Source of the DNA: an uncultured Synergistales bacterium
Lineage (GTDB): Bacteria > Synergistota > Synergistia > Synergistales > Aminobacteriaceae
Length of the DNA stretch: 9,782 nucleotides
Assembly (NCBI GenBank): GCA_905234205.1
Contig: CAJOGG010000033.1
Span: 1-9,782 of the forward strand
Direction of reading: 5' to 3'
Shown here: in pieces, positions 1 to 9,782 of the stretch
How the letters are laid out: each line of letters begins with the position of its first letter
Numbering within the stretch: position 1 is the stretch's first letter
Notes under the pieces: model-generated
Databases searched by the model: none
Seen by the model: only the letters and a program-made list of their open reading frames with translations
Told to the model about the DNA's origin: nothing
Program-made: the position numbers and the translations under genes

Positions 1-923
1 GTAACTGCGCAAAGAGTGTTCATGATGTTGAAATCACCAACTAATGGGGAATGCAGCGTTATATCTTTGAAGCCCTCCGTGTGAATCGTCAATTCTGTCC
101 CGTTAATGCTTGTTCGTGAGTTAATGACACGTGATGAAGCTCCGTCGCTCAAGCCAAATCCGCGCAAGTTATTCGGAAATTCAGCGAGTAACTTTTTCCC
201 GTAAGGGTCATCGAAATTCGCCGCGCCCATAAAATTTTTCTTAACGTATCGCGTGAACAATAACTTCTTGGCCTCGAAATAGTTATCCATAGTAACGTGA
301 AAATCTAAATGCTCGGGGTAAAGGTTAGTGAAGACTGGCACATCATATAACGCGCCCTTGATTCGTCCCAAGAATAACCCATGTGAAGACGTTTCCATTA
401 CGCAAGCCCCACAACCATTCTTAACCATTGAGGCTAATTGCCGCTGTATTATGCAACTTTCCGGCGTAGTTCTGTCGGCTTCCTTGTCTGTTATTCCGTC
501 GCTCTCTATGATCGTTCCCAAGAGTCCGACTCTCATTCCTGCGGCCTGTAAAATGCTACGTGTTATGTAAGTCGTGGTTGTCTTGCCATTCGTTCCTGTT
601 ACACCGACCATTAATAATTTCTCTGATGGATTGCCATAAACAAGAGCTGCCACTTCACCGAGATAATCGCGAACACTTTCAACGATAATTTGAGGCTTGC
701 TTGTGTCAAGTTCACGTTCACAAAGAAAAGCACATGCTCCCTTTTCCTCGGCGGCTTTCGCAAATTCATGCCCGTCAGATTTTTCGCCTTTGATACAACA
801 GAATAGCGTCCCTGGTTTTACGTCCCTGCTGTCTGATATAACGTCAAGGATTTCTGGATTATCGTTTGCTATAACTCGTGCTTTATCAACAAATTTTGCA
901 ATCTCTTCAAATTTTACGCTCAA
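1..923 (-). CDS. murE: UDP-N-acetylmuramyl-tripeptide synthetase MurE (N-terminal 307 codons, cut by window edge)
   Basis: MurE is a cytoplasmic ATP-dependent ligase that adds the third amino acid to UDP-MurNAc-L-Ala-D-Glu in peptidoglycan precursor synthesis. Read on the minus strand, the frame is open from a TTG at 923 to the window edge. An N-terminal Mur domain carries SDSRDVKPG near residue 30. The ATP-binding loop GTNGKTTTT is at 110-118, TTPES at 152-156, ETSSHG at 177-182 and HLDFH at 205-209. Lys219 in FEAKK fits the lysine that is carbamylated in this family, and GDFNIMNTL lies at 297-305. The TTG start is chosen because GGGAAGG lies eight bases upstream; the ATG at 943 is out of frame and stops quickly. 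The motif before HLDFH reads NLYPE instead of the common NLTRD. The C-terminal domain, which sets the choice of diaminopimelate or lysine, is outside the window. It follows ftsI in the dcw order but is separated from it by two opposing genes. Confidence 0.93.
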   Translation of the reverse strand, partial: MSVKFEEIAKFVDKARVIANDNPEILDVISDSRDVKPGTLFCCIKGEKSDGHEFAKAAEEKGACAFLCERELDTSKPQIIVESVRDYLGEVAALVYGNPSEKLLMVGVTGTNGKTTTTYITRSILQAAGMRVGLLGTIIESDGITDKEADRTTPESCIIQRQLASMVKNGCGACVMETSSHGLFLGRIKGALYDVPVFTNLYPEHLDFHVTMDNYFEAKKLLFTRYVKKNFMGAANFDDPYGKKLLAEFPNNLRGFGLSDGASSRVINSRTSINGTELTIHTEGFKDITLHSPLVGDFNIMNTLCAV

Positions 924-931
924 GAATAAAA

Positions 932-938
932 CCTTCCC
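932..938 (-). promoter_or_regulatory. ribosome binding site supporting the TTG start of murE
   Basis: The minus strand reads GGGAAGG here, eight bases before the TTG at 923. No in-frame ATG or GTG with a comparable site lies nearby, so this site fixes a non-ATG start. Confidence 0.65.
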
Positions 939-954
939 TTCATGCTAGGTTTAA

Positions 955-974
955 CGTTTATTATAATGTAAACG
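955..974. promoter_or_regulatory. inverted repeat enclosing a two-way -10-like element between murE and the DUF4405 gene
   Basis: CGTTTA (955-960) and TAAACG (969-974) form a perfect 6-base inverted repeat around an 8-base centre. The overlapping ATTATAAT at 960-967 is itself palindromic, so TATAAT occurs on the plus strand (962-967) and on the minus strand (965 to 960). This gap must serve both divergent genes, so a shared promoter or operator is plausible. No good -35 box was found at 16-18 bases on either strand; TTCATG at 939-944 is a weak plus-strand candidate. The regulatory role is inference. Confidence 0.4.
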
Positions 975-987
975 GGAGGGAAAATTT

Positions 988-1677
988 ATGTTAAGACCTG
1001 CTATAGATATACTGATGACAATAATTTTGTTGCTCTCAATGTCGTACGAATTAATCGGCCCGGCGTTGGAAAAGTTCATTGAATTTGATGGCTATGAATA
1101 CGGCGGAATGATTCATGAATGGCTGGGAATGAGTCTCGTAATATTATTCTTCGTGCATTTGTGGCTCAATCGTTGGTGGCTTAAGGGAATGTTCAAAGGA
1201 CACTACAACCTAGCGCGAACGATTTTAACGAGCATAAATATTTTGTTGATCGCCGATGTGATTTTGTTGACGTTCAGCGGAATGATAATGTCGCAAATTT
1301 TTCTTGAGCTCACTGAAACAGATAGCTTAATGTCATTCGCAAGGACTTCACATATTTGTGCATCATATTGGGGATTCGTGCTAATGAGCTTTCACGCCGG
1401 ACTCAACTGGCATATATTTAGCGCGATGATGTTCAAAAAGTTGAAGTTGCGAGCAAAAGTCTTACCACATGTTTTAGCCTTGGCCATAATGATCTACGGG
1501 GGTTTTGCATTTATCAAGCGTCAATTCTGGGATTATATGAGCCTTAATGTTGCGTTCGTGTTCTTTGACTTTGAGGAGCCATTTATGTATTTCATGCTGG
1601 ATTATATAGCTATTATGATTCTGTTCGGGTGCATTGGGCATTACATTATTCTAGGGTTGAGGAGGCTGAAAAAGTGA
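988..1677 (+). CDS. DUF4405-family, cytochrome b-like integral membrane protein
   Basis: This 229-residue protein is almost entirely hydrophobic, with about five or six membrane helices (roughly 5-25, 43-62, 80-105, 122-146, 158-176 and 200-223). It resembles the DUF4405 family, known as a flavinylation-associated cytochrome domain in extracytosolic electron transfer systems. His43/His57 and His122/His136 lie in two helices and each pair is separated by 13 residues, the spacing of bis-histidine diheme cytochrome b proteins. His142 is an additional histidine. Heme binding and a redox role at the inner membrane are inferred. GGGAGGG at 974-980 gives a ribosome site seven bases before the ATG. 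The gene heads a two-gene unit with a DUF4491 gene and runs against the surrounding murE and ftsI genes. No FMN-binding partner is visible in this window, so the electron donor and acceptor are unknown. Confidence 0.72.
   Translation: MLRPAIDILMTIILLLSMSYELIGPALEKFIEFDGYEYGGMIHEWLGMSLVILFFVHLWLNRWWLKGMFKGHYNLARTILTSINILLIADVILLTFSGMIMSQIFLELTETDSLMSFARTSHICASYWGFVLMSFHAGLNWHIFSAMMFKKLKLRAKVLPHVLALAIMIYGGFAFIKRQFWDYMSLNVAFVFFDFEEPFMYFMLDYIAIMILFGCIGHYIILGLRRLKK
1659..1665 (+). promoter_or_regulatory. ribosome binding site that decides a GTG start for the DUF4491 gene
   Basis: GAGGAGG lies inside the end of the DUF4405 gene, eight bases before the GTG at 1674. It supports that start over an in-frame ATG at 1629, which would add 15 residues read only from the overlapped upstream gene. 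Confidence 0.75.
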
Positions 1678-1970
1678 ACTGGTCAGGAATTATAATCGGC
1701 GTGTTTGCGTTCGTGATAACCGGGATATTTCACCCTGTAGTCGTGAAGTGCGAATATTATTTCACGGAAAAAATCTGGCCAGTATTTCTCGTACTTGGAT
1801 TAATTTGCGCGGGCTTGTCATTAATGATTGAGGATCAAATTATTTCGGGCGTGCTAGGGATATTGAGCTTTGTATTATTGTGGTGTATTCGTGAACTCAA
1901 AGAACAAACCCGGAGAGTTGAGAAAGGTTGGTTTCCCAAGAATCCCCGGCGTAAGTACAATCAAGAATAA
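1674..1970 (+). CDS. DUF4491-family small membrane protein
   Basis: This 98-residue protein matches the DUF4491 family as I know it: an N-terminus like MNWSGIIIG, an HP pair at 20-21, EYYF at 27-30, three membrane helices, and a conserved tail with RVEKGWFPKNPRRK at 81-94. Its biochemical role is unknown. The GTG start overlaps the TGA of the DUF4405 gene (GTGA), so the two are probably translationally coupled and their products may work together. An ATG at 1629 would give a 113-residue form but lies deep in the previous gene and lacks the strong ribosome site. The last 10 bases overlap the end of ftsI on the opposite strand, leaving no room for a terminator between the two genes. Confidence 0.82.
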   Translation: MNWSGIIIGVFAFVITGIFHPVVVKCEYYFTEKIWPVFLVLGLICAGLSLMIEDQIISGVLGILSFVLLWCIRELKEQTRRVEKGWFPKNPRRKYNQE

Positions 1971-3640
1971 TATTCAAGCTCTGCCATTTCTTCAACGATT
2001 GCTTTGAAGGGCGGGGCAGCTAATTCTCCTCCGTAAATTCTTCCGCTAGTGGGCTCACCGATAACTACGAGCATTAAATATTTCGGATCCTCATAAGGCC
2101 AGAACCCTATGAACGACGCTACGTAACGATTACGCGAATATTTGCCTCCTTCGGGAACTTGTGCTGTGCCTGTTTTGCCTGCTAGATCAGTGATTGTGGT
2201 TGCTGCTCTTTTTCCTGTGCCTTCAGTAACAACTCGCCTCATAGCACTTCTGATCCAGGCCGTAGTTTCTGGGGTATACACTTCACGCATAACTTTAGGT
2301 TCTCCCTTGTAGACTATTTCGCCCAACGAGTTCATAGCTTCTTTAACGATATAAGGACTCATCAATCTGCCACCGTTGACTATGGCTCCCATGGCCGTGA
2401 TTAGTTGCAGAGGCGTAACGGCGAGTCCCTGACCTATAGCAATATTAGCCGGAGTAATTCCTCGCCAACTTTCAGGGTAAAGCAAAATCCCTTTAGCGAT
2501 TCCAGGTAACTCAATGTCACTTTCTTGACCAAAGCCTAAAGCCATTAAGCTCTCGTACATTTTCGCCTTGTTAGCTCTGATTCCGATTTGAGCCATTCCG
2601 ACGTTTGACGACTTAACCAACAATTGCGCAGTATCAATATTTCCGAAAGCAACATTTGAACTTGACTCACGAATAAATCCATCAGCCACTTTCAATTTCG
2701 CCGGGCAGAAGAACACTTCATCTTTACGAGTCAATCCTCTGTCTAACGCAACACCTAAATATATTGGCTTAAAAGTTGAGCCAGGTTCATAGCCTCGACT
2801 TACAACACTGTTGGACAATGACGCAATGTCAAGATCCTTTCTGTTATCGGGGTCATATGAAGGCCAGCTAGCCATCGCTAAAATTTCGCCGGTGTTAGGA
2901 TTCATGCACACACATGCAGCCCATTTCGCGCCGTCGTCCTGTGCAGCTTTGAATAAATGTTTCTCGACGACGTATTGAATTCTGCTGTCAAGCGTGAGAG
3001 TTATTACAGGTGTAACAGTTCTGTGTTCGGGTTCGCTCTCGAAAAGTGAAACGGGTTGACTTCCTGGACGTCGCACCACAATTTTTTGTCCAGGCGGATT
3101 ATAAAGCATCTCGTCCCATTTCTGCTCAATCCCGGCCAAGCCTCTGTTATCAGCGTCACAGAATCCCAACACGTGCGACATTAAATGCTCGTTCGTATAT
3201 TTTCTATAAGGTTCGTCGATTTTTATTAGGGCACGAGTTTTTTTCATGAGGTCGATATATTTTTTCGCTTCAGCTTCGGGTAGCCTATGAGCAAGCCACA
3301 TAAAACGCGATTTTGTGTTCATAGCCGCCGCGATTTTCTGAACTAAGTCTTCCGACATAATTTGCGCAAATTCTTGAAGGTCATCGGATTTTACCATTGA
3401 GGGATCTATTGCGAATGAAGGAATTGTTTCGGAGATCACGAGCGCATTACCCTTAGTATCTTGAATGATTCCGCGTGTGGATTTCAAGGGAACTTTGCGC
3501 CAGTATTGACGTTGCGATTGTTGTACGATTCTAGGATTAGGATAACAATGACGTGCTACTAAAGTTACTCCGATGACTGTGAAGAATAAAACAAATAAAA
3601 TCCAGGGATTTCCAGCCCTGCCTTTTCGTGTATCTGCCAT
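1961..3640 (-). CDS. ftsI: class B penicillin-binding protein, FtsI/PBP3-like septal transpeptidase
   Basis: FtsI cross-links septal peptidoglycan in the periplasm during division and is membrane-anchored. The 559-residue product has one N-terminal membrane helix (about 13-30), a pedestal/dimerisation region starting around RGIIQDTKGN (56-65), and a transpeptidase domain from about 210. All three active-site motifs are present: S288-T-F-K291 (catalytic Ser288, Lys291), S344-S-N346 and K489-T-G491. There are no PASTA repeats, unlike many Gram-positive or SpoVD-type relatives, and the length suits a diderm FtsI. It lies 21 bases after the ftsL-like gene, as in a standard dcw cluster. The region upstream of its ATG has only a weak ribosome site (AAG about seven bases away). 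The 3' end overlaps the opposing DUF4491 gene. Confidence 0.92.
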   Translation of the reverse strand: MADTRKGRAGNPWILFVLFFTVIGVTLVARHCYPNPRIVQQSQRQYWRKVPLKSTRGIIQDTKGNALVISETIPSFAIDPSMVKSDDLQEFAQIMSEDLVQKIAAAMNTKSRFMWLAHRLPEAEAKKYIDLMKKTRALIKIDEPYRKYTNEHLMSHVLGFCDADNRGLAGIEQKWDEMLYNPPGQKIVVRRPGSQPVSLFESEPEHRTVTPVITLTLDSRIQYVVEKHLFKAAQDDGAKWAACVCMNPNTGEILAMASWPSYDPDNRKDLDIASLSNSVVSRGYEPGSTFKPIYLGVALDRGLTRKDEVFFCPAKLKVADGFIRESSSNVAFGNIDTAQLLVKSSNVGMAQIGIRANKAKMYESLMALGFGQESDIELPGIAKGILLYPESWRGITPANIAIGQGLAVTPLQLITAMGAIVNGGRLMSPYIVKEAMNSLGEIVYKGEPKVMREVYTPETTAWIRSAMRRVVTEGTGKRAATTITDLAGKTGTAQVPEGGKYSRNRYVASFIGFWPYEDPKYLMLVVIGEPTSGRIYGGELAAPPFKAIVEEMAELEYYS

Positions 3641-3661
3641 ATTTACTTAACAAGAATTAAT

Positions 3662-4051
3662 TTATCTACCAAATAACCAAGCTAAACCAGATCGCCAACC
3701 TTTGTTATCAGAGCCAGCATTGTTGTTCTTGGAAGCTGTTAAGACGTTGCCACGAACACGTACCGGTAAAGTTTCAGCCTTCAATACTTTCTGCATACCC
3801 AAATTTTCCTTGCAATAGCTGTAGATTCTTATGGGCGCAACTAGAGCAGAAAGCTCTTGACGTAAGATTACTTCTTCATCTGAATATTTCTGAATAGATT
3901 GATTTACCGATTCAAGGTAGTATGCTAAACGTGCCGCATGAAATCTGAGAATGCCCAGTCCGATCAGCAAGCACATCACAACGAATAAAGCTGCTATAAA
4001 TTTCATGGTGGTTCTAAATTTCACTGTGTTAGTGTTATTTTTGCTATGCAC
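3662..4051 (-). CDS. ftsL: FtsL-like cell division protein
   Basis: A small single-pass membrane protein sits between rsmH and ftsI, the standard place of ftsL. From the GTG at 4051 it has 129 residues: a short basic cytoplasmic tail, a membrane helix at about 17-36, then a helical, likely coiled-coil stretch (about 40-72) and an ENLGM motif at 82-86 typical of FtsL/DivIC proteins. FtsL works with FtsB and FtsQ to activate septal synthesis by FtsW and FtsI. The sequence is weakly conserved in this family, so the call rests on topology and position. The frame extends upstream to a GTG at 4105 (147 residues, with a run of arginines), but that codon lacks a ribosome site, while GGAGG lies nine bases before 4051. 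Confidence 0.75.
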   Translation of the reverse strand: MHSKNNTNTVKFRTTMKFIAALFVVMCLLIGLGILRFHAARLAYYLESVNQSIQKYSDEEVILRQELSALVAPIRIYSYCKENLGMQKVLKAETLPVRVRGNVLTASKNNNAGSDNKGWRSGLAWLFGR

Positions 4052-5081: not shown

Positions 5082-5777
5082 ATGCCAGAGAAAAATATTG
5101 CTGATATTGTTCAGGAAGTTCTTGACAAAAGCGGTAAACCTTTCGCGACATTGACGTCTCTTCCAAGAGTCAAATTAGGTCTCAAGAGCAACAGTCCTGT
5201 ATCTCAAGTTCATAAATATCTTGAATCAAAGCTTGAGGATCGCTTCATGTTCGTGAAGAATGGTCGCAAAATGTACATATTAAAGCCATGTGAGCCAAGC
5301 GAGTTGGTGTTGTCAGCTTTATCGAAGACAGTAGCAAAAAGTCCTAAGGTCATAGCAAATTCATTACCATTCTTAAAGCGTCCTGAGTTCGTTGCAGTTC
5401 TGAATGAGTTAATCAACAACGGCCAAGCCAAAACTATTCTTACAGCAGACCTTGAGCCAAGAGTTATGTTAGCTGATAGGCCCGCAACAGTTTCAGAGAG
5501 CAAGCCCACATCTTCAAGAGCTTACACGCAACAGGAGTTTAAGAAAGCCTTTGACGAACTTGACAGGGGGAAAATTTTTGTGCGCATATGTGATTTACGT
5601 AGAGAATTGAATTGGCCGCGCAAAGTTTTCGATAACATGATCAAGAATTTACGTGATGCGGAAGTTATACAGCTTCACACCGGCGACGCTTCTCTCATGA
5701 CTCCAGACGAAGTTAATGACTGCTTTGTCGACGAGAACAACTTCAGAATGGGATCGGTAACATGGTATGCTAGATAA
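5082..5777 (+). CDS. uncharacterised protein with apparent winged-helix modules
   Basis: I do not recognise a named family for this 231-residue soluble protein. It appears to contain three helix-turn-helix-like units: residues 4-69 (ending in the wing-like MFVKNGRKMYILKP), 72-133 and 148-231. The last unit carries FVRICDLRRELNWPRKVFDN at 166-185, followed by a helix and IQLHTGD, a pattern of winged-helix proteins that read or scaffold on DNA. A low-complexity linker (about 134-147) separates units two and three. It is the first gene of the plus-strand operon and overlaps the ATPase gene by 11 bases, so the products likely act together, perhaps with this protein as a DNA-binding adaptor. That role, and the number of winged helices, are inference. 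It could also be an autoregulator of the operon. Confidence 0.6.
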   Translation: MPEKNIADIVQEVLDKSGKPFATLTSLPRVKLGLKSNSPVSQVHKYLESKLEDRFMFVKNGRKMYILKPCEPSELVLSALSKTVAKSPKVIANSLPFLKRPEFVAVLNELINNGQAKTILTADLEPRVMLADRPATVSESKPTSSRAYTQQEFKKAFDELDRGKIFVRICDLRRELNWPRKVFDNMIKNLRDAEVIQLHTGDASLMTPDEVNDCFVDENNFRMGSVTWYAR

Positions 5778-7761
5778 TGAAATTCAGGAGCTTTTGCGGA
5801 AAAACAATCCGTTTATTTCTTCAGCTTCCCCACTTCCTTGGGACAATATGAATCCCGACTTGGCCCAGTTAAATCGTGAAACTTCTGACAATATCGAGCA
5901 ACTTATACGCCACAAACGTAGAAATCCTTCGATACCTTTAGCCGGGCTTATACTTGGTGAGGCAGGTTCCGGGAAGACTCATATGCTCACAAGAATTTTA
6001 CGTAGACTCCGCAGTAATGCACAATTCGCAATTTTTGTAACCGTCAAGACATTCAAAGATCCTAATAGCGCGGTTCAGCATTTACTGTCGGAAATATTCA
6101 TAAGCCTTAAAAGAATCCATAGTGCCGGTAAAAGTCAATTCGATATGCTTATGAGCGAGTTTATAAAATCTTATCAAGAACACAGACGAAACGAAGGCAT
6201 TACTAGGACTGATAATATTGACATCAAGAAATATTTATCTCGTGATATTCCTGGACTCGATCGAAATTTTCTGAAGTGTATCATGCTTTACATTGGCACT
6301 AGCGACGAAGATACACGCTCTGATGTTATTGATTGGTTGAACGAAGGACTCGACGAAGAGGACTCAATGCGTCTTGGGCTCTCCGTGAAAGATATTTACG
6401 CAATGACTGACGAGAGACGCGAACACGAAGCCGAAAAGGTCTTAATGAATCTTGGGCTTATGCTTGCTTATGCGAAAGTCTCAATGATAATTTGCTTTGA
6501 CCAGCTTGACTCGATGAAGGACAACAGGAAATTAATCGACGCTTGGGGAAATTTAATTGCGCTAATGGTAAATGACTTGTCAGGAATTTTGCCGCTATGT
6601 TTCTTGAGGGCTGCAACTTGGAATGAAAATTTCGTTCCTGTTCTTGATGACGCAGTGAAAGACCGTTTATGGCAGAATGTCATGTTCATGAAGTCATGCA
6701 CGCTTGAACAGGCAAGACAGATAATCCAAGACAGAATAAATTACGCCTTCAAGGAAGAAGGAAACGCCAAAGAGATTTATGCGTGGCTGATAAATAAATT
6801 ACAGAATAATTTGAAACCTGGTTCACCTACTAGAATGGTTATAGAACTTGCCAATCATGTCATCAATAATACGAGCGTCCCAACTAGTCCTGAAATAGAC
6901 GACAAAAACGACGACTCCGAAGACATTATTAGGGATATTCAGGAAACTTATAAGGACGAGTACAACAAAGTTCAAGCAGAGCCACACATATGGCCACCTA
7001 ACGCGGATCAATTAGCTTTGACGCTCAACACATGGCTGGAAGTTTTTGATGGATTCATTTTTTCTAGCAGCGAATTAAAGAGCGTGAAGTCAGCAGGTTA
7101 TTATAGGGATCGAATTTTCGAGATAATCATTGTTACGGCCAAGAATAGTACTGTAGCATGTGCGACGATAAAGCACGGAATAAATTTCTTGAAGATTAAT
7201 GGTGGAGGATATCGTTGTTACATAACGGAAGACAAAATCCACAAGAAAACCTGGAAAAAAGCTAACGAGTTGATGAAAGCTTTCAAAGACGACGGCGGCC
7301 AAGTAATAATATTGGACTCGAACAGTCGCATAAAATGGTACGCTCTCACAGCCTTGATTAATCGCGTTGATAATGGTGACGTGAACTTGTATTTGAAAAA
7401 CTGCAATAGGATCGCTACTCGTGATGACCTGAAATTATTTATGCGGCGAATTAAGCTCTTCGATTTCCCGTTTCTTGGTGAGGAGCATAGTAACGAAATA
7501 GTAATTCAACCTGAAATTGATACGTCAGAACAGTCCCGAGAAATTAGCGACGATGATTTGATTACGACATTAAAAGATTGCGTGAAAAATTCTCCCATGA
7601 AGATATTAAGCACGGATAAAGCTTTGGAGTTGTTGGTACAGCGTGATATTTTGGTGACGCGAGAAAAACTTTTAGAGCTCGTGAAAGATAATAGCAACGT
7701 GTTCAGGACGTTCACATCACAGAATGACGAAATACTGATAACTTTTGCACGCAAAAAATGA
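5767..7761 (+). CDS. P-loop (AAA-type, ORC-like) ATPase, uncharacterised
   Basis: This 664-residue protein starts with an ATPase domain. Walker A is GEAGSGKT at 64-71, and a Walker B-like strand MIICFDQLD is at 240-248, with Asp245 followed by Gln instead of the common Glu. ARQIIQDRI (316-324) and GSPTRMVIELANH (352-364) resemble the lid of ORC/Cdc6 or STAND-like ATPases. An acidic linker (about 374-400) leads to a second part at 410-560 containing alternating strand-like segments (FEIIIVTAK, GQVIILD). A C-terminal helix-rich segment (592-664) may be another winged helix. The start at 5767 overlaps the upstream gene by 11 bases, and the stop overlaps the nuclease start by four bases (ATGA). 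It probably powers or gates an action on DNA together with its two neighbours. Substrate and exact family are unknown. Confidence 0.72.
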   Translation: MLDNEIQELLRKNNPFISSASPLPWDNMNPDLAQLNRETSDNIEQLIRHKRRNPSIPLAGLILGEAGSGKTHMLTRILRRLRSNAQFAIFVTVKTFKDPNSAVQHLLSEIFISLKRIHSAGKSQFDMLMSEFIKSYQEHRRNEGITRTDNIDIKKYLSRDIPGLDRNFLKCIMLYIGTSDEDTRSDVIDWLNEGLDEEDSMRLGLSVKDIYAMTDERREHEAEKVLMNLGLMLAYAKVSMIICFDQLDSMKDNRKLIDAWGNLIALMVNDLSGILPLCFLRAATWNENFVPVLDDAVKDRLWQNVMFMKSCTLEQARQIIQDRINYAFKEEGNAKEIYAWLINKLQNNLKPGSPTRMVIELANHVINNTSVPTSPEIDDKNDDSEDIIRDIQETYKDEYNKVQAEPHIWPPNADQLALTLNTWLEVFDGFIFSSSELKSVKSAGYYRDRIFEIIIVTAKNSTVACATIKHGINFLKINGGGYRCYITEDKIHKKTWKKANELMKAFKDDGGQVIILDSNSRIKWYALTALINRVDNGDVNLYLKNCNRIATRDDLKLFMRRIKLFDFPFLGEEHSNEIVIQPEIDTSEQSREISDDDLITTLKDCVKNSPMKILSTDKALELLVQRDILVTREKLLELVKDNSNVFRTFTSQNDEILITFARKK

Positions 7762-9194
7762 CAGAGCCTCGTACTTTTAGCATAACTGTTAGCGATATAG
7801 CAATATGTCAAAGATGCCCAATGCTTTTGGCTTACAGAATTCATAAGAACTATAAATCTGCGTGGCGTGTCGGAATGAAGGGGAGCGGTGATTATTACGG
7901 GTCAGCTTTTCATAAACACATCGCGCAAGTTTTCTTTGAGGCGGCCTCTGATCCACGAGATAAACTTCACGGAAAAATTCTAGCTGCTACGCTCAACGGA
8001 GCTGAAGCACTTGAAGAAATGATCTGCGAGGAAATATTTATGCCTTACGTAACAAAGTATTCAGTACGATTAACTTCGGGGCAGATAATTTCAATGGCAC
8101 GTGGTGTAACAACTTGGGTTAAGGCCATGTACGATTTTTTCCAGGAAATTCCTTCGCTTACCAAGGACGCCGAAACTGTTTTTATTAAGCCTGAAGGAGG
8201 TTTGCGGGGAAATTTTGACGTGAAGGACGAAAACTTTGAAGGACGGCTTGAGATTAACGGTCGCTATGACGCTTTGATGTTCAACGTTGATAAACAGGAG
8301 GCAAGGCTATTTGAGTTCAAGGGACTGAAGAAATCTGATGTTACTGTCCCATTGTCGCAAACGTTAATTTACGCGTGGCTGCTATATAAGTCTACTGGCA
8401 TAATTCCTTCGATTGAGATAGTTTATCTTGACGAGGAGGAGCCGATTATATTCTCATCACAAACAGTTAGGGCTATGATAATTTCAGCTTTGCCGGAGTT
8501 ATTTACGACTGTATTCAATGTAATTTCATTAAGGAGGGCACCAAAGATTTTGACGGATAAAGAATTATGTTCATCATGTAAATATCATAAGCATTGTCAA
8601 AATGAAGTTGATAAATTGTTCCGTAAGAAACGAACGGGCGCATCATTGTTAAGTGTGTTGATATTCTTCATGGCCGCAATGATGATAATGACACAAGCTT
8701 TTTTCTTTACCACGAACTCAAGCGAATCGCTAGCTGAAGAACGTCAACTAGTTGGAATAAAACTGAAGCTTACAAATAAAATTGAAGAGGCAAAAGAATA
8801 CATAAAGACTCACGACACAACAACCTTGACAGCCGAGGAAAATGAAGCGACGAACGCAACGTTTTATCAGTATACAATGGTCTCGCCTGATTATGATGAC
8901 ATTAAGAACAAAATCATCAGCCGTAATTGGAAAAACGCAAACAGCAGAGAATATTTTCTCACAATTAACGATTTAAATTATAGCTTAGACACTGAATATC
9001 ATGTTCGAGATAGTGATGGTGCACCTGTTGACGAAATTCAGCATAAACGAGTTTTCCCTGCCATGGGAGAAGGTTATTATCTCATTAGAGCTTACACAAA
9101 AACTTTTGCGGGCACGTCGTTAATGTATCAAGTACTCGTCAAGAAGAACGGCGATAAAGTTGAAATAATTTCTTACGAAGAGGTCTGGTACTGA
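7758..9194 (+). CDS. Cas4/RecB-like PD-(D/E)XK nuclease joined in frame to a pseudopilin-like domain
   Basis: One 478-codon frame holds two unrelated parts. Residues 1-285 look like a RecB/Cas4-type nuclease: His52 in GSAFHKHI, Asp171 in NGRYDAL, E186-F-K188 as the ExK pair, and QTLIY at 201-205 as the trailing Q-x3-Y motif. Cys20 (in CQRCP) with Cys271, Cys274 and Cys280 (CxxCx5C) matches the 4Fe-4S arrangement of Cas4 and AddB-type nucleases; Cys17 is extra. Such enzymes resect DNA ends. Residues 287-478 resemble a minor pseudopilin: a basic leader ending in KKRTG, a hydrophobic helix (296-318) and a soluble domain. The nuclease would normally end shortly after Cys280, exactly where the pilin part begins. 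Either this is a true fusion, or the pilin part is translated separately from TTG at 8616, or a stop codon has been lost. It overlaps the ATPase gene by four bases (ATGA) and pilM by one (TGATG). Confidence 0.75.
   Translation: MTEPRTFSITVSDIAICQRCPMLLAYRIHKNYKSAWRVGMKGSGDYYGSAFHKHIAQVFFEAASDPRDKLHGKILAATLNGAEALEEMICEEIFMPYVTKYSVRLTSGQIISMARGVTTWVKAMYDFFQEIPSLTKDAETVFIKPEGGLRGNFDVKDENFEGRLEINGRYDALMFNVDKQEARLFEFKGLKKSDVTVPLSQTLIYAWLLYKSTGIIPSIEIVYLDEEEPIIFSSQTVRAMIISALPELFTTVFNVISLRRAPKILTDKELCSSCKYHKHCQNEVDKLFRKKRTGASLLSVLIFFMAAMMIMTQAFFFTTNSSESLAEERQLVGIKLKLTNKIEEAKEYIKTHDTTTLTAEENEATNATFYQYTMVSPDYDDIKNKIISRNWKNANSREYFLTINDLNYSLDTEYHVRDSDGAPVDEIQHKRVFPAMGEGYYLIRAYTKTFAGTSLMYQVLVKKNGDKVEIISYEEVWY
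8616..9194 (+). other. pseudopilin-like domain, possible nested gene
   Basis: Starting at the TTG at 8616, the same frame would give a 192-residue protein of normal minor-pilin size. An eight-residue basic leader ends in Gly, giving a plausible prepilin peptidase site before ASLLSVLIFF. Position +5 is Ser instead of the usual Glu, as in PilX/GspK-like minor pilins that lack it. A hydrophobic helix and a charged amphipathic stretch (EERQLVGIKLKL) follow, then a predicted soluble domain. GAAG eight bases upstream is only a weak ribosome site. The location directly before a pilM-like gene supports a pilus role. The domain call is by pattern and is not a confirmed family match. Confidence 0.55.
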
Positions 9195-9782
9195 TGAAGA
9201 TTCCGTTTGAGATTAATACCCCAAAACTTTTGGCAACCTCCGCTGGACTTGCAATTCACAATGAGTTTTTGTTCTTCATTGAAGTTGATGAAGAGGCTAA
9301 TTCGATGCGCAAGATCACTGTCCCGCTTGCTGAAGGCTGTATTGTGAACGGTCAAATAAAACATTTCTCAATGCTCGAAGCCGGATTTAATGAACTCCAT
9401 AAACAAGTCGGAAAGATTCGTGAACCCGTCATCATAGGCATTCCGGAAGGTGAAGCGATAATAAGGCTGCCTTCATTTCCAAACATGAGCATTGACGACA
9501 TAAGAGGCTCGCTTGATCTAAATTTTGACGAGTATTTCCCATTTCCTAGGCATGACGCAGTGTTTGACATTATACGAATAAAAACTCCGGCGGATTTACA
9601 AGAACGTGACGAAGTAACTGTATTAGCTGCTGCCGCGAAAAGAGCAACCGTCGATAAAATCCTAGACGCCACGAGAAAAGCTGGTGTCCCCGCAGGAGCT
9701 GTTGAACCCGTAAATTTTGCTATGCTTCGATCAATTCCAGAGGCTAGAGAAGGTTTGTGCGTATTTGCTGATGCTCATAACA
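9194..9782 (+). CDS. pilM: PilM-like type IV pilus assembly protein (N-terminal 196 codons, cut by window edge)
   Basis: PilM is a cytoplasmic actin-fold protein that binds the N-terminus of PilN and links the inner-membrane pilus platform to the motor. The visible part shows DEYFPFP near residue 117, followed by VLAAAAKRATVDKILDATRK and AGAVEPVNFAMLRSI, matching the PilM/GspL-type pattern of an alanine-rich strand, a helix, then a reference to a second subdomain. The usual N-terminal GIDIG nucleotide-binding signature is not evident; the protein starts with PKLLATSAGLAIHN, so ATP binding may be lost or altered. The ATG shares a base with the TGA of the preceding frame (TGATG), and GAGG about 10 bases upstream gives a fair ribosome site. 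It could instead be a GspL-like secretion protein; the missing downstream genes (pilN, pilO) would settle this. Confidence 0.68.
   Translation, partial: MKIPFEINTPKLLATSAGLAIHNEFLFFIEVDEEANSMRKITVPLAEGCIVNGQIKHFSMLEAGFNELHKQVGKIREPVIIGIPEGEAIIRLPSFPNMSIDDIRGSLDLNFDEYFPFPRHDAVFDIIRIKTPADLQERDEVTVLAAAAKRATVDKILDATRKAGVPAGAVEPVNFAMLRSIPEAREGLCVFADAHN

Follow-up and report, generated by a model that had tools for sequence, protein, structure and literature searches.

The window analysed here is a stretch of 9,782 nucleotides (contig CAJOGG010000033.1 of assembly GCA_905234205.1) from an uncultured Synergistales bacterium of the Aminobacteriaceae. It carries a module of three overlapping genes, coding for a small winged-helix-like protein, an Orc/Cdc6-type AAA+ ATPase and a protein in which an iron-sulfur (Fe-S) PD-(D/E)XK nuclease is joined to a pseudopilin-like part; a pilM gene follows (Table 1). 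An earlier note, made from the letters of this DNA, had called both domains and had placed them in a single frame without a stop between them. Both calls are upheld and the frame is confirmed, since its 478 codons are open throughout and the fusion recurs in relatives.

Table 1. Features of the three-gene module and of the adjoining pilM gene, with positions counted from the first base of the window
Feature	Positions	Strand	Basis or remark
First module gene, 231-residue winged-helix-like protein (weakly supported)	5082..5777	+	Open reading frame; 31-row alignment
Second module gene, Orc/Cdc6-type AAA+ ATPase	5767..7761	+	Overlaps first gene
Fused gene	7758-9194	+	Open frame, 478 residues
Nuclease half, residues 1-284	7758..8609	+	Predicted Fe-S PD-(D/E)XK nuclease, Cas4/AddB/Dna2 type
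Linker, Cys280 (last cluster Cys) to predicted cleavage Gly	8598..8636	+	Variable; in-frame TTG at 8616 without Shine-Dalgarno
Predicted prepilin-peptidase site, Gly294/Ala295	8637..8642	+	Signal conservation in 120 homologues
Pseudopilin half, residues 295-478, predicted GspK-like minor pseudopilin without Glu5	8640..9191	+	Membrane helix from ~297 (~8646)
pilM, cut by contig end	9194..9782	+	Start overlaps fusion stop by one base; PilM_2 42.9 bits vs. cut-off 27

When the window protein was searched in 61 genomes, 33 matched, all of them members of the window's genus (33/37, own genome included). Comparison of the 39 genus loci that hold the ATPase, 37 of which are informative (L057 and L106 are cut by contig ends), reveals that nuclease and pseudopilin are fused in frame at 26 loci, the window included, split into two genes at ten, and in an intermediate state at one, L050; L052 and L065 comprise pilin ends only and were left out of these counts. 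One of the fused loci, L063, is frame-broken inside the nuclease part and continuous at the junction. At L050 (positions 7882-9512, genome G024), nuclease, pilin signal and helix are followed by a stop and then by a complete separate pilin gene, an arrangement reminiscent of a junction that was partly duplicated. A profile search matched 205 database proteins, and each of the 120 listed carries both parts within 436-551 residues; one of these is 91% identical to the window protein and lies on an 84-kb contig. A search of contigs gave nothing with the single protein as query, and with the alignment as query it gave 32 named loci, assigned to uncultured Synergistaceae, Synergistales, and Fretibacterium, most of them from goat, deer, reindeer, and sheep. 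The nuclease-pseudopilin fusion is therefore real and is a conserved feature of this rumen-dwelling genus of Synergistaceae. A stop between the parts in all close relatives, the outcome that the earlier note had named as speaking against a fusion, is not what is found, as other assemblies carry the fused form, too.

The N-terminal half matches the Pfam family PDDEXK_1 over residues 9-281 (37.3 bits vs. a cut-off of 22). The catalytic residues His52, Asp171, Glu186/Lys188, and Gln201-x3-Tyr205 as well as the cluster cysteines Cys17, Cys20, Cys271, Cys274, and Cys280, a set to which the earlier note had drawn attention, are all present and invariant in the 21 fused proteins aligned. Cas4 models of PADLOC match the nuclease, and the six matches that Foldseek returned for the whole fusion model at an E-value of 0.001 or better are nucleases without exception. 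We predict from sequence and structural model that this half is a Cas4/AddB-type Fe-S nuclease. Catalytic residues, cluster cysteines, and fold are common to the window nuclease and to Cas4, AddB, and Dna2; it differs in that the window protein stays below the cut-off of the Cas4 equivalog TIGR00372 (24.6 bits vs. 65), and the Pfam scan finds neither a helicase nor a Cas1 domain in it.

The second half begins with a prepilin-type signal, K-K-R-T-Gly294|Ala-Ser-Leu-Leu-Ser, followed by a strongly hydrophobic segment from about residue 297, where hydrophobicity peaks. In the predicted structure, a single long helix (297-351) precedes strands at 440-477, which is the layout of a type IV pilin, i.e., a helix followed by a C-terminal β-sheet. 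The pilin half was recovered in structure searches only by a second look with VIA-align and not by standard Foldseek on the whole fusion. Used alone as query, it matches no Pfam model and none of the NCBIfam prepilin models (including TIGR02532, which does match a Glu5-bearing pilin further downstream), and PADLOC finds nothing in it. The window protein does not match the GspK equivalog NF037980, and a pilin-like protein encoded before pilM in G019 reaches only 20.9 bits of the required 130. Glu5 is absent from all 120 listed fused homologues, and GspK itself is not known to carry this residue. According to one source, Glu5 is dispensable for prepilin processing, whereas the last glycine of the leader, which is 6-26 residues long, is "absolutely critical" (PMC4471445); another gives Gly or Ala as the final residue of the leader (PMC8179133). 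The basic residues, Gly or Ala at position -1, and about 20 hydrophobic residues that characterize class III signals are all found here. What differs from a GspK-type minor pseudopilin of type II secretion is the leader, which in the fused form would be an enzyme of 294 residues instead of 6-26; in the ten split sisters it has a length of about 4-8 residues.

Conservation around the junction is uneven. Among the 120 listed fused homologues, 117 have Gly and three have Ala at position -1, 118 have Arg or Lys at -3, and 115 have Ser at +2; the entropy at -1 amounts to 0.17 bit, compared to 2.77 at -2 and 3.16 at -6. In the 26 fused genus loci, position -1 is likewise Gly (24) or Ala (2). The linker between the last cluster cysteine and this glycine varies in its letters and in its length (10-27 residues among the 120). 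In three homologues with long linkers (P0114, P0119, and P0121), a stretch near residues 280-310 is partly repeated before the predicted cleavage signal, which is suggestive of a duplicated junction. There is no evident reason why Gly or Ala at -1 should be nearly invariant beside a varying linker if the nuclease stayed attached, and this argues for cleavage. The earlier note had left a choice between a nuclease tethered to the membrane and one released by prepilin peptidase; release is favoured by Gly or Ala at -1 in 120/120 homologues and by the short-leader pilins of the sister loci, and permanent tethering is the less favoured of the two. A coupling of DNA processing to a pilus or uptake machine, which that note had also raised, would at present be hypothetical.

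At the split loci, the pilin gene starts three to seven codons before the glycine (leaders of 4-8 residues such as MTKRRG), it overlaps the nuclease gene by ATGA or GTGA in six of ten cases, and in six of ten a Shine-Dalgarno match of at least 5 nucleotides precedes its start. In a tree of 54 rows, built by a careful method from ATPase and first-gene sequences with nuclease and pilin excluded, fused and split states change at least eight times, as is expected if both states are nearly equivalent. The window's clade is fused in 9/9 rows and another clade in 5/5 (L063 included), and a mixed clade of ten rows consists of six split, three fused, and one cut locus. By unordered parsimony, both states are equally good for the root of the genus (8 vs. 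8), and the fused state is favoured for the 38 rows that remain without L064 (7 vs. 9); the places of L064 and L122 in the tree are unsure because of their long branches. Given the near-invariant cleavage signal beside a varying linker and the alternation of fused and split forms on the tree, we consider it reasonably probable that the gene encodes a nuclease-pseudopilin polyprotein, cut by prepilin peptidase at Gly294/Ala295.

The overlaps by ATGA or GTGA at six of the ten split loci would also suit another history, in which the fusion arose by near-neutral loss of a stop codon, translation of the pseudopilin still begins internally, and the fused protein is a side product. The linkers of the 26 fused loci, from the last cluster cysteine up to the glycine, were scanned for the start codons ATG, GTG, and TTG. 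A start with a Shine-Dalgarno match of 5 nucleotides exists in frame at three loci (L040, L044, and L110), which are the three fusions of the mixed clade. Thirteen others have a start without such a match, among them L048 and L038 with matches of 4 nucleotides and the window, whose TTG lies seven codons before the glycine. No ATG, GTG, or TTG occurs in the remaining ten linkers (L033, L036, L037, L039, L043, L045, L047, L063, L107, and L108), and these loci apparently yield the pseudopilin only as part of the fused protein. Since these 23 linkers and the two clades that are fused throughout speak against internal initiation as the rule, loss of a stop codon seems a rather unlikely account of the fusion as a whole.

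Cleavage of a polyprotein requires the peptidase, and a prepilin peptidase (PF01478) was matched in 34 of 37 genomes, above cut-off in 32, and in 22 of 23 genomes of the window's genus. At L073 (positions 1-3756, genome G009), another in-frame fusion of the genus, the prepilin peptidase forms the C-terminal end of a long frame that also encodes a surface-protein-like part and contains the segment Cys-Asn-Ile-Gly-Phe. One finding weighs against the polyprotein: G016, a genome that is 89% complete, yields no peptidase match and yet bears a fusion without an internal start, unless its peptidase falls into a gap. In the assembly of the window's own genome, the prepilin peptidase gene (L066, positions 1023-1797, contig C104) is interrupted and split over two frames, and, unlike in most relatives searched, its match stays below the family cut-off. 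If the nuclease were left uncut, it would remain tethered to the inner membrane by the pilin helix and might act at a pilus or pseudopilus base, for instance on incoming DNA. The case of G016 would be in keeping with tethering, as would the joint frame of nuclease and membrane helix, the nuclease of L050, which keeps signal and helix without the rest of the pilin in front of a complete separate pilin gene, and the presence in the window genome of ComEC, three pilus/secretion ATPases above cut-off, and two secretins. However, a tethered nuclease would not be expected to show near-invariant Gly or Ala at -1, nor to be encoded apart from the pilin at 10 of 37 loci. Tethered action at the pilus base is a possible, bolder reading that we regard as unlikely.

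The two genes preceding the fusion overlap by 8-26 bases at all 33 loci compared. For the first, Pfam HTH_ParB scores 17.0 bits, under its cut-off of 22.6, a PDB sequence search returns MarR matches only at E ~0.3, and PADLOC gives nothing. The ATPase matches AAA_22 (33.8 bits vs. 27) and KAP_NTPase (27 vs. 20) in Pfam, its score of 25.8 bits for TIGR02928 being far under the cut-off of 181.3. Its AlphaFold2 model (mean predicted local distance difference test score 85.1) finds Cdc6 (1fnn) as best Foldseek match at E 3.5e-6, along with further Orc/Cdc6 entries, and after the AAA+ core this model contains an α/β stretch (430-560), perhaps restriction endonuclease (REase)-like, and a winged-helix-like end (595-660). 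PADLOC gives weak matches of the ATPase to Avs2, mad8, PtuA, and RtcR. A PHROGs scan yielded nothing useful, and PDB sequence searches with alignments A1, A2, and A3 no firm match. The ATPase is present in 39 of 43 genus genomes, with only a weak partial match in G025. Outside the genus it occurs in 14 more genomes, all of this family, and nowhere else among 180 genomes of the order; a search of plasmids gave no match.

Around the module, a pilM-like gene lies downstream at 27 of 38 loci; the contig ends first at ten, and at L061 it is absent although about 3 kb of sequence would have space for it. Beyond pilM, a second pilin (unmatched at L032), and mltG, ftsK is found at 20 of 38 loci, and rsmH is located upstream at 22 of 38. 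The names mltG, ftsI, rsmH, murC, and murB are putative and were given by inspection of the sequences. A pattern search of 22 pilM loci outside the fused set recognised a stand-alone pilin-like gene just before pilM at six, three in other genera (L136, L137, and L144) and three in genus members without the nuclease (L151, L152, and L153), and not at the remaining loci examined. Because of these six, the module seems to have landed before a pre-existing minor pseudopilin gene. At L041 (positions 8543-9946), a single protein of 467 residues seems to unite PilM with a PilN-like membrane part; the two are separate genes at most of the sister-genus pilM loci examined. A membrane-protein-like open reading frame occupies positions 988-1677 of the window and matches DUF4405 (37.3 bits vs. 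26.7).

In sister genera, the same nuclease has a different partner. At 9 of the 15 sister-genus loci fetched (L111, L112, L113, L115, L117, L119, L120, L121, and L123), the nuclease is continued in frame by an FtsK motor with a Walker A motif, and in the one such protein tested, Pfam FtsK_SpoIIIE and FtsK_alpha are above cut-off; SspH models of PADLOC match the motor half. The nuclease frame ends alone at L116, L122, and L124, and no nuclease was detected by profile at L114, L118, and L125. At L114 (positions 6006-9305, genome G080), the ATPase appears to be joined directly to the FtsK motor, a third arrangement; the database proteins P0242, P0243, P0245, P0246, and P0247 are likewise apparent ATPase-FtsK proteins in which no nuclease was found, and these and the one of L114 comprise 1023-1099 residues. 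With one nuclease-FtsK protein as query, 2193 proteins were matched among the 7994 best candidates, and the 120 matches listed include Desulfobacterales, Planctomycetes, and Methanospirillum. In plasmids, 748 records were matched, none spanning 80% of the query, and the ten listed cover mostly the FtsK half. The fused protein of the window contains no FtsK domain. Since the best matches to the FtsK half in 25 genus genomes are only 25-37% identical and mostly lie in frames of 500-800 residues, as for cell-division FtsK, the window's genus has apparently lost the motor of the module.

The module resembles the HerA/FtsK-capture neighbourhoods of a 2024 analysis, which, as its main text has it, combine an Orc/CDC6 ATPase with an active REase, a HerA/FtsK protein, and winged helix-turn-helix (wHTH) proteins, the ATPase containing an inactive REase before its wHTH domain (PMC10853773). 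As far as that text describes them, the Orc/Cdc6-type ATPase with α/β domain and winged-helix-like end, the PD-(D/E)XK nuclease, and the small wHTH-like protein are shared with the window, and the FtsK domain with FtsK-alpha is shared with the sister genera. The window's genus differs in that no FtsK was found in the module and the nuclease ends in a pseudopilin, and the neighbourhood of the window module is largely conserved and not mobile. The role of the captured systems against invaders is a prediction in that paper, too, whose main text contains no mention of Synergist-, pilin, or Cas4 (PMC10853773).

The ftsK downstream of the module at 20 of 38 loci, the modest identity of the FtsK matches in the 25 genomes, and the wide occurrence of the ATPase in the genus (39/43, one weak partial) would allow the module to be a chromosome-maintenance device in which cell-division FtsK substitutes for the motor that was lost and the fusion to the pseudopilin is incidental. 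However, ftsK was not found at L060 and L062 although more than 5 kb follow pilM there (other loci are shorter), and the order of the genes may show no more than where the module was inserted, which makes such a device quite improbable. An artefact of assembly or sequencing, for which only the draft state of the assembly (311 contigs) and at least one broken gene elsewhere in it could be cited, can practically be dismissed, an assembly slip having been rejected as the source because the 26 loci and the 120 listed proteins, including the relative on the 84-kb contig, are fused as well.

Returning to the polyprotein, insertion into the membrane would leave the nuclease on the cytoplasmic side, where prepilin peptidase would trim it off as an outsized leader at Gly294/Ala295. 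Two predicted products would result, a cytoplasmic nuclease and a membrane-located minor pseudopilin of the GspK-like kind. The freed nuclease would likely work with the products of the two upstream genes, i.e., the wHTH-like protein and the Orc/Cdc6-type ATPase, and the three-gene module may represent a domesticated relative of the counter-invader systems of the HerA/FtsK-capture type that has apparently lost its FtsK motor. Should both halves be functional once separated, the fusion probably serves their one-to-one co-translational production and not a joint activity. It is also conceivable, though doubtful, that a counter-invader nuclease exchanged its FtsK pump for a pseudopilin that initiates the tip of a pilus for DNA uptake or secretion; each pilus primer might then deliver one nuclease to the inner membrane face where foreign DNA enters, with prepilin peptidase as the release switch.

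Modular type IV pilins such as PilB of S. sanguinis also combine a pilin with an unrelated functional domain; in the available parts of their description, this domain comes after the pilin module and is exposed on the outside (PMC8179133). In the window protein, the extra domain precedes the predicted cleavage site, in the position of a leader, and would remain within the cell.

No paper on a nuclease-pseudopilin fusion was found in the literature searched, which comprised open-licence papers only and is thus weak evidence of absence, and we know of no other pilin precursor with a complete enzyme as leader. The fusion is a new arrangement of a known type of nuclease, a known type of pseudopilin, and a known processing enzyme, and it would turn an enzyme into a leader peptide. 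If cleavage takes place, a bacterial polyprotein would have prepilin peptidase as its processing protease, and the known range of pilin fusions would come to include the cytoplasmic side. As the same nuclease bears an FtsK motor in sister genera, its motor-fused, split, and pilin-fused forms offer a natural series for how defence-like modules become rewired.

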